DNA of 32,226 nucleotides from Dehalococcoidia bacterium (GTDB lineage Bacteria > Chloroflexota > Dehalococcoidia > DSTF01 > JALHUB01), in the NCBI GenBank assembly GCA_022865685.1, contig JALHUB010000301.1:1-32226 (forward strand), read 5' to 3'. Below the pieces are notes generated by a model. That model had not been told where the DNA came from. It made no database searches and worked only from the letters and a program-made list of their open reading frames with translations. A program made the position numbers and the translations under genes. Below are positions 29,512 through 31,996 of the stretch, piece by piece (positions within the stretch are counted from its first letter, which is position 1; each line of letters opens with the position of its first letter).

Positions 29512-29587
29512 GTCCCTGTAGCTCAGAGGAAAGAGCGGCTGCCTTCTAAGCAGCGGGTCGGGGGTTCGAATCCCTCCAGGGACGCCA
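29512..29587 (+). tRNA. tRNA-Arg (anticodon UCU), CCA encoded
   Basis: Hand-folded cloverleaf: acceptor GTCCCTG/CAGGGAC perfect, D stem GCTC/GAGC, anticodon stem GCTGC-CTTCTAA-GCAGC (TCT at 29545-29547), T arm GGGGG-TTCGAAT-CCCTC, discriminator G then CCA. Confidence 0.96.
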
Positions 29588-29657: not shown

Positions 29658-29795
29658 TGATATTCTGCGCGCCGCGGGAGACAGTCGCAACGCCCCGCAG
29701 TAAGGTGCGTGTTCAAGCCTCTCCCAGGATGGACTGAGCCGATGCGACCGTGCCGTCGCGCACTCGTGGCCTGAGCCGACATAACGCACGGCCGC

Positions 29796-29823
29796 TTGAC
29801 AAGCGCTTCGCCGCAGCTATACT
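29796..29823 (+). promoter_or_regulatory. Predicted sigma70-type promoter, regulator copy 1
   Basis: TTGACA - 16 bp - TATACT. Confidence 0.6.
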
Positions 29824-29952
29824 TTAGGCGCTGGCATCTCGCGCCTGACCATCCCCGCTTGCCGATGCCGCCAACAGGGAGGTTGCGCGGATGCATGTTG
29901 CCGCTGTCCCGCCACTCCAACCCTGTGCCGCTGCGTCCTCATCGGAGGCGAC

Positions 29953-30501
29953 GTGAAAAGCGATGGGAAGTGGGACAAGCTCGACCCCCGCGAGCGGCAA
30001 ATCGCTGAGCTCCTGCTGCAGGGGAAGAGCAACGCGGCTATCTGCGCAGAGGTCTTCCTATCCAGAGCACGCGTTCAGGACTGCATCAAGGGGATCTTGA
30101 TCAAGACGGGAGCAGACAGCACGAGAGGCGCTATCGCTCTGCTCGTTGGGGAGAGGGAGACCCTATCCCTGCTCCGCGTGCTGGAGCAAGCGTCAGACGG
30201 TGTGATAATCATACAAGATCGACTTGTGAAGTTCGCCAATAGGGCCATGGAATCGATCCACGAGTATGAACCCAACGGAATGACGGGGAAGTACTTCTTA
30301 GACCTGATTGCTCCCGCATCCAGGGATGTTATGAGCAAGCGTTATGAACTGAGAGTGCAGGGTGAGTCTGTTCCTACCACCTATGCGATCAGAATCCTGT
30401 GCAAGGGCGGGCAAGAGAAGGACGCAATGATAGCCAGCGCAGGCCAGATCAGCTACTGCGGCAGGCCTGCCATCCTGGGGATTGTAGTCGAGCGCATATG
30501 A
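29953..30501 (+). CDS. Transcriptional regulator: N-terminal LuxR-type HTH, C-terminal PAS-like domain (paralogue 1)
   Basis: LDPRERQIAELLLQGKSNAAICAEVFLSRARVQDCIKGILIKTGADSTRGAIALL (GerE-like HTH) then VLEQASDGVIIIQDRLVKFANRAMESIHEYEPNGMTG (PAS-like). GTG start. Confidence 0.82.
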   Translation: MKSDGKWDKLDPRERQIAELLLQGKSNAAICAEVFLSRARVQDCIKGILIKTGADSTRGAIALLVGERETLSLLRVLEQASDGVIIIQDRLVKFANRAMESIHEYEPNGMTGKYFLDLIAPASRDVMSKRYELRVQGESVPTTYAIRILCKGGQEKDAMIASAGQISYCGRPAILGIVVERI

Positions 30502-30631
30502 GAGGAACAAGCTCGGGCTCAGTATCCTGTCCTAGACATTTGTCTCATTCTTCGACTTCCTTCGGTAAGGGAATCTGGAGAGACCTTGGCGTCGCGCACT
30601 CGTGGCCTGAGTCGACATAACGCACACCCGC

Positions 30632-30659
30632 TTGACTAGTGCCTCGCCGGAGCTATACT
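30632..30659 (+). promoter_or_regulatory. Predicted sigma70-type promoter, regulator copy 2
   Basis: TTGACT - 16 bp - TATACT. Confidence 0.55.
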
Positions 30660-30786
30660 TAGCGCGTTGGCATCTCGCTCCTGACTATCCCCGCTTGCCG
30701 ATGCCGCCAACAGGAAGGTTGCGGATGCATCTTGCCGCTGTCCTGCTACTCCAACCCTGTGCCGGCGTGTGCTCATCGGAGGCGAC

Positions 30787-31335
30787 GTGATAAGCGACTG
30801 GAAGTGGGACACGCTCGACCCCACTGAGCGGCACATCGCTGAGCTTCTAGTGCAGGGGAAGAGCAACGTGGCCATCTGTGCAGAGGTCTTCCTATGCAGA
30901 GCACGCGTTCAGGACTGCATCAAGGGGATCTTGATCAAGACGGGAGCAGACAGCACGAGAGGCGCTATCGCTCTGCTCGTTGGGGAGAGGGAGACCCTAT
31001 CCCTACTTCGCGTGCTGGAGCAAGCGACGGACGGCGTGGTAATCATACAAGATCGACTTGTGAAGTTCGCCAATAGGGCCCTGGAAAGGATCCACTGTTA
31101 TGAACCCAACGGAATGGTGGGGATGCCCTTCGTAGAGCTGTCAGCTCCGGGATCTAGGAGCGCCACGATCAATCACTACGAACGGAGAATGCGGGGTGAG
31201 CCAGCTCCTACCAGCTATGCGATCAGAATCCTTTGCAGGGATGGGCAAGAGAAGGACGCAATGGTAGCCAGCGCGGGCCAGATCAGTTACTGCGGCAGGC
31301 CTGCCATCCTGGGGATTGTAGTCGAGCGCACATGA
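30787..31335 (+). CDS. Transcriptional regulator: N-terminal LuxR-type HTH, C-terminal PAS-like domain (paralogue 2)
   Basis: Same length as paralogue 1, gapless alignment; GTG start equivalent to 29953. Confidence 0.82.
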   Translation: MISDWKWDTLDPTERHIAELLVQGKSNVAICAEVFLCRARVQDCIKGILIKTGADSTRGAIALLVGERETLSLLRVLEQATDGVVIIQDRLVKFANRALERIHCYEPNGMVGMPFVELSAPGSRSATINHYERRMRGEPAPTSYAIRILCRDGQEKDAMVASAGQISYCGRPAILGIVVERT

Positions 31336-31996
31336 GAGGAAAAGGCTCGGGCTCAGCATCCTGCAGACCGCTCGGTCTGTGACTGGTAGCCTCCAACATA
31401 TGTCCTAGACACTTGTCTCATTCTTTGGCTCCACTTGTCATAGAACCCCTCACTGGGATTGACAAGCCGTGCGGCGCCTTCTACGTTTGGGGTGGGTCCA
31501 GCGCTTGCGTTGGAATCGCGCGGGAGACGCCCCCAAGGAAGCAGCCTGGCAAGGATGCCGTCTGCCTCCTACTGGTTGGGGTGTCTCTTCCGTGCAACAA
31601 GCGTCAACTGGTGGCCCACTCGACTTGTACTCTCCCCGCCTTGGACAGCTGTTTGCTGTCTTGACCCCGTGGCAGAGGGCATCGATGCTTGGTCGTGGTG
31701 TATCTACGACGCACGCCGCCGGCGCTGCGGCGCCCAGGCTGGGCATGAGGGCGCGCCGCAGGCCTCCTTCGAGAATGGGAAGAACCCGCCCATCGTCCTC
31801 TGCCGCCATCATGACTGTTGCGGTGAGGATGCTGTTCCCGTTCCCGTCGGGGGCCGGCGCGGCGCGCCGTTGAGGCTAGGCGGGCTTCCCGCGTGGTTAA
31901 CAATAGGGGTCCGGCATTTCCGCGATGGGCGGCAGCGCGAAGAAGCGCGCGGTGTGCCGCCGGACAAACAATAAATGTGAAGGGGGAGCACAAACA

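Follow-up and report, generated by a model that had tools for sequence, protein, structure and literature searches.

The closest described counterpart of the regulators reported here is FG214 of Fimbriimonas ginsengisoli. Its description (PMC13060918; PDB 10JX, 10JY) presents it as a heme-sensing one-component switch with an N-terminal HTH and a C-terminal PAS domain, which binds heme b via His156 and His175. The PAS sheet is the docking site of helix 4, which lies beside the HTH; heme reduction or imidazole frees this helix, leading to dimerisation and binding of inverted repeats. For the PAS-LuxR regulator EL222, the same text likewise describes a release of helix 4 from the PAS sheet. A further group of regulators with both domain types is formed by the PAS4-LuxR solos of Photorhabdus, whose ligands are not known (PMC4235431).

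Here, we analyzed a window of 32,226 nt from a Dehalococcoidia bacterium, in which a small one-component transcription regulator is genuinely duplicated in tandem.

Tandem duplication of a regulator unit

The window represents a whole contig (C272) of a 2.06 Mb genome, which is 93% complete and assembled into 329 contigs. At its right end, a unit of ~820–850 nt occurs as two direct copies on the forward strand, at 29746..30561 (copy 1) and 30582..31431 (copy 2). The repeat search revealed blocks of 300 nt (92% identity) and 142 nt (89% identity) with a spacing of 834–836 nt and an additional 30-nt 3' block with 90% identity. The full alignment of the copies showed that homology spans ~29746/30582 to ~30561/31431, with an inter-copy spacer of ~20–29 nt of unrelated sequence. 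Both approaches bear out the direct copies proposed by an earlier sequence-only reading, whose coordinates were right within ~10 bases.

An assembly or binning artefact, in which a single locus or the alleles of two strains were joined as a false tandem, has to be weighed at this point. The genome is a 329-contig draft, the contig ends 0.8 kb past copy 2, cutting off the right-hand neighbourhood, and a 108-nt identical run shared by the copies could confuse a small-k assembly graph. However, the copies differ by 12% of their nucleotides along most of their length, the inter-copy spacer is unique, the flanks are different and copy 2 contains a unique 39-nt stretch. Moreover, alleles of two strains would appear as alternative paths and not consecutively. 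An artefact behind the tandem is unlikely, and we give it very little weight.

The GC content of the duplicated region is 57% compared with 65% for the contig. Nevertheless, a foreign origin was not shown by composition, as the GC3 of the region (0.69) matches that of the neighbouring gene (0.70). A mobile origin was also rejected: phages and viral contigs contained no relative, and haloarchaeal plasmids gave just PAS matches of 26–34%.

Genomic neighbourhood

Upstream of the tandem, a tRNA-Arg (TCT) was identified at 29512..29587 (+) by ARAGORN and Rfam. The order of DUF6391 followed by this tRNA was kept in 13/15 of the relatives' loci, across the order. The sequence following the tRNA differs in every genome compared, and in the nine relatives compared it showed no significant match to that of the window.

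Fragments of the tRNA were observed elsewhere. In the relative G006 (C164, L092, minus strand), an intact tRNA-Arg(TCT) at 9505-9430 is followed by four 43–52-nt 3' fragments (7044-7000, 4816-4765, 2076-2034 and 942-894), spaced at ~1–3 kb. Adjacent fragments enclose about one large ORF, and one of these ORFs encodes a subtilase with a weak dockerin match. This array resembles serial integration of small cassettes; an integrase was not recognised among the few G006 ORFs scanned. In the genome studied here (G000), a decayed 48-nt 3' half of tRNA-Arg(TCT), 94% identical to the tRNA of the window, is located on the minus strand of contig C12 (6703-6749, L110), upstream of the gene for a secreted protease of the papain family that carries a dockerin domain, the same theme as in G006. 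Within the 2.6 kb after the tRNA that are present on the contig of the tandem, neither an integrase nor a tRNA fragment was seen.

The conserved DUF6391-tRNA anchor, the variable 3' side and the tRNA 3' fragments in G006 and on C12 suggest that the tandem pair sits at a likely integration hotspot. They also indirectly support the previous assignment of the pair to an accessory region next to a tRNA.

Promoters, leaders and 3' flanks

Each copy carries exactly the promoter that had been proposed, TTGACA-N16-TATACT at 29796..29823 (11/12 consensus) in copy 1 and TTGACT-N16-TATACT at 30632..30659 (10/12 consensus) in copy 2. These are two strong matches in a region where 1.1 matches, of any quality, are expected by chance. 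Directly 5' of the -35 box, a 40-nt segment (29756..29795 and its counterpart at 30592..30631) is 92.5% identical between the copies. It represents a candidate operator or UP region, and autoregulation via this segment is conceivable.

As also described before, each promoter is followed by a leader of ~130 nt. Within the leader, we identified a putative, possibly translationally coupled ORF of 21 codons (ATG..TGA, 29891..29956 in copy 1; 30725..30790 in copy 2), the TGA of which overlaps the GTG of the regulator (GTGA). This ORF has its own ribosome-binding site, GGGAGG in copy 1 and GGAAGG in copy 2, and its DNA is 89% identical between the copies. A conserved peptide was rejected, as codon changes are mostly non-synonymous (judged by eye) and give no sign of coding constraint. 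The ribosome-binding site of the regulator could pair with CGCTTGCCGATG upstream, with a folding no better than chance. A structured leader RNA was rejected as well; Rfam gave no match, and folding was no better than that of shuffled sequences (z -0.13).

Four occurrences of CCGCCAACA(A/G)G(G/A)AGGTTGCG, each behind a promoter resembling TTGACA-N16-TATA(A/C)T, were found in the genome: in both regulator copies, on contig C155 and on contig C242. At the latter two, it abuts the start codon, on C155 that of a peptidase-like gene and on C242 that of a secreted-protein gene; the genes were named by eye, and both count as secreted-protein genes. The shared promoter-leader (TTGACA-N16-TATAaT ... CTCGCTGCTGATnATCCCCGC ... 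CCGCCAACAAGGAGGTTGCG) spans 29824-29895 and 30660-30728 at the regulators, 1641-1699 on C155 and 1172-1226 on C242; it was not found in three relatives. Possibly, these occurrences reflect a common regulon or copied promoters. Since, at the regulators, the motif lies in front of the leader ORF rather than of the regulator itself, the promoter-leader could stem from another gene.

The 3' flanks, the first of which is located at 30502..30561, are homologous according to repeat search and alignment. Thus, the similarity stated before holds, but the flanks are not collinear, as copy 2 contains 39 extra nt (31362..31400). These include the perfect palindrome CAGACCGCTCGGTCTG (31364-31379) with a 6-bp stem and represent either an insertion in copy 2 or a deletion in copy 1. 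A terminator function of the flank was rejected: no intrinsic terminator was found in the region, and 3' flank folding was unremarkable (z 0.24).

Domain architecture of the two regulators

Regulator 1 (29953..30501) and regulator 2 (30787..31335) are both encoded by GTG-initiated CDSs of 549 bp, in agreement with the sequence-only reading, and comprise 182 aa each. Pfam assigned a GerE HTH to residues 10–61 (E 9e-6) and a PAS domain to residues 75–149 (1e-5), and TIGR00229 (NCBIfam) covered residues 74–178 (1e-8). For the LuxR/GerE HTH profile PF00196, copy 1 reached 25.7 bits and copy 2, whose protein is 80% identical, just 15.9 bits (cut-off 23.5). Regarding the PAS/sensory box (PF00989, TIGR00229), both copies scored 35 bits with TIGR00229 against a cut-off of 22.9.

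In a separate AlphaFold2 run, the HTH was modelled with a pLDDT of 92 and predicted to form helices at 12–22, 27–34, 38–52 and 57–79. This tetrahelical arrangement with a long last helix matched the DNA-binding domains of NarL, GerE and FixJ in Foldseek. The PAS part (74–180) was predicted with a pLDDT mostly >90 and a Foldseek probability of 1.00; the added alignment rows of this run covered the PAS only. Together with the profile match of copy 1, the predicted fold places the HTH in the LuxR/GerE type, and the TIGR00229 score and predicted PAS fold likewise point to a PAS/sensory box domain. Pfam, NCBIfam and AlphaFold2/Foldseek consequently agree with the earlier proposal of an N-terminal HTH and a C-terminal PAS-like domain.

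The chain stops at the last PAS strand, with neither a kinase nor another output domain, and the linker leading to the next domain in kinases (the usual DIT linker) is missing at the PAS end. The connection to the HTH must therefore run from the N-terminal end of the PAS domain along helix 57–79. A receiver domain was not found outside the HTH part (Pfam, NCBIfam), nor was an autoinducer-binding domain (Pfam), which sets the proteins apart from two-component LuxR-type response regulators and quorum-sensing LuxR proteins.

FG214 shares its order of domains, its length class and the long helix 4 with these proteins, which raises the question of a true functional orthologue, i.e. a heme- or gas-sensing switch of this type. 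Structurally, the PAS domain was closest to the heme PAS domains of EcDOS and FixL, and FG214 (10jx) came in at rank 8; NCBIfam gave a weak DosP match. However, the structural match to many unrelated PAS domains is just as good. The FG214 PAS was the best PAS sequence match in the PDB for the two-sequence profile, albeit a weak one (E 0.045). In an alignment whose register agrees with the published numbering of residues 156, 159, 172 and 175, His156 of FG214 corresponds to Met127 in copy 1 and Thr127 in copy 2, and His175 to Ile146 in both, so that both copies lack the histidine pair for heme ligation. Copy 2 alone has a histidine (His130) at the position of His159, a residue that the authors of PMC13060918 did not count among the axial ligands. 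A heme-binding mode like that of FG214 or FixL was accordingly rejected, and an orthologous heme switch appears very improbable. As both axial histidines are missing, the aligned residues imply that the sensor chemistry must differ from that of FG214.

Distribution

Protein and DNA searches of the 93%-complete genome revealed no copies beyond these two. Among ~780 other Chloroflexota genomes (overlapping sets of 99 relatives, 393 of the class and 400 of the phylum), a second HTH(N)-PAS(C) protein was not recognised. The HTH alone was additionally searched in the class, where the matches included two small ORFs of G091 (99 and 146 aa frames); those matches that could be placed had a C-terminal HTH. 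Histidine-kinase matches covering the query from ~6–11 to 178 were rejected as HTH-PAS homologues, as their apparent HTH proved to be the tail end of the PAS domain in front of it. Altogether, the expanding, lineage-specific family suggested before was not recovered; what we observe is a single duplication, with both copies in this genome and without any further member recognised among relatives. The set contained one genome of this genus, so that "lineage-specific" can be dated no further than the inter-copy Ks of ~0.19.

The closest PAS relatives (44–47% identity) were all found in large multi-sensor proteins of the class, mostly histidine kinases. Such a distribution, together with a PAS domain that ends without the usual DIT linker, would also fit a non-functional fusion remnant, in which a kinase PAS fragment was accidentally joined to a stray HTH. 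Against this stand two intact copies with an overall Ka/Ks of 0.62 and a strong promoter each, as well as the high-confidence prediction of an entire PAS sheet, and we regard a remnant as extremely improbable.

Divergence of the two copies

The two regulators differ at 36 residues, and 22/36 changes fall in PAS helices. Based on the variability among 22 related PAS domains, 13.4 of the 27 PAS changes would be expected at residues 97–143, where 22 were observed (P = 5e-5). The DNA-binding helices 3–4 and the PAS beta-sheet are nearly frozen: Ka was 0.01 and Ks 0.06 for residues 37–80 (DNA-contacting helix and linker), and Ka was 0.05 for the C-terminal PAS sheet (145–182). For PAS residues 100–145, by comparison, Ka was 0.33 and Ks 0.29 (Ka/Ks ~1.1). 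The ratio of non-synonymous to synonymous changes in the pocket versus the remainder was suggestive but not significant (Fisher P = 0.065). From the general PAS fold, the changed helices would be those that wall the ligand pocket.

The frozen middle includes the 108-nt identical run (permutation P = 1e-4). Since Ks is also low there, gene conversion probably contributed and may, in place of selection, account for some of the pattern.

Gene conversion is also part of a more conservative explanation, according to which the pair is an ordinary recent duplicate: the PAS domain of one copy drifts under relaxed constraint, conversion keeps the middle alike, and there is no new signal or shared-regulon logic. 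The Ka/Ks of the pocket helices is what neutral drift would give, the identical run with its low Ks suggests conversion, and the pair exists as just two copies and in no other genome searched. Nevertheless, at Ks 0.19 neither copy has lost its ORF, promoter, start codon or ribosome-binding site, and drift alone does not predict PAS changes that are restricted to helices beyond family variability while the sheet is conserved. We consider such drift rather unlikely, though it deserves more weight than the other alternatives discussed above.

Discussion

Overall, we moderately favor a recently duplicated one-component regulator that has kept one operator specificity while its sensor pocket diverges. 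According to this model, the N-terminal LuxR/GerE-type tetrahelical HTH would bind DNA, and the long helix 4 (57–79) would run straight into the C-terminal PAS sensor. A change of ligand or redox state in the PAS domain would be expected to alter how helix 4 docks on the PAS beta-sheet, and thereby dimerisation and DNA binding, as shown for FG214. Effector release of this kind appears to be the best model by analogy, since the parts used by FG214 have counterparts here, which are the conserved ones. Once duplicated, the regulator would have kept its DNA-contacting helix, linker and beta-sheet nearly constant while the pocket helices changed; because of this, the two proteins probably share operators and answer different or differently tuned signals.

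Heterodimers of regulator 1 and regulator 2 are possible. In an extended and quite doubtful version, the pair would act as a two-input regulator with the same operator, a conserved dimer surface and different pockets, whose homo- and heterodimers integrate two signals at one set of promoters, including their own.

The importance of the locus is modest, as the protein class is already known and the pair is new as members. Still, the HTH-first order is rare among PAS regulators, with a single case described structurally, and a frozen DNA-binding half next to a diverged sensor half offers a natural experiment on sensor change with the regulon kept.

Among known systems, the source family of the PAS domain consists of multi-sensor PAS histidine kinases of Dehalococcoidia-like genomes (up to 47% identity), but these are large and have no GerE HTH beside the related PAS; apparent N-terminal matches are PAS tails. 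The Photorhabdus PAS4-LuxR solo clusters (PMC4235431) also consist of neighbouring LuxR-HTH/PAS genes with presumed sensor diversification, but differ in their N-terminal PAS of the PAS4 type, the large size of the clusters and the unrelated bacterium. EL222 and VqmA similarly combine a LuxR-type HTH and a PAS domain in one chain, but in the opposite order, with PAS first and HTH last. The architecture that had been called inverted is indeed the minority order; it is uncommon yet already known, as FG214 (PMC13060918) has been structurally characterised with the same arrangement, an outcome that the sequence-only reading had itself listed as counting against its proposal. The regulators described here share with FG214 the N-terminal LuxR-type tetrahelical HTH, the long helix 4, the C-terminal PAS without any further domain and the length class (182 aa compared with ~200 aa) of a one-component regulator. 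In contrast, sequence similarity is weak and restricted to the PAS domain, the axial histidines are replaced, and the available text of PMC13060918 does not describe FG214 as a tandem pair, the arrangement in which the regulators occur here.
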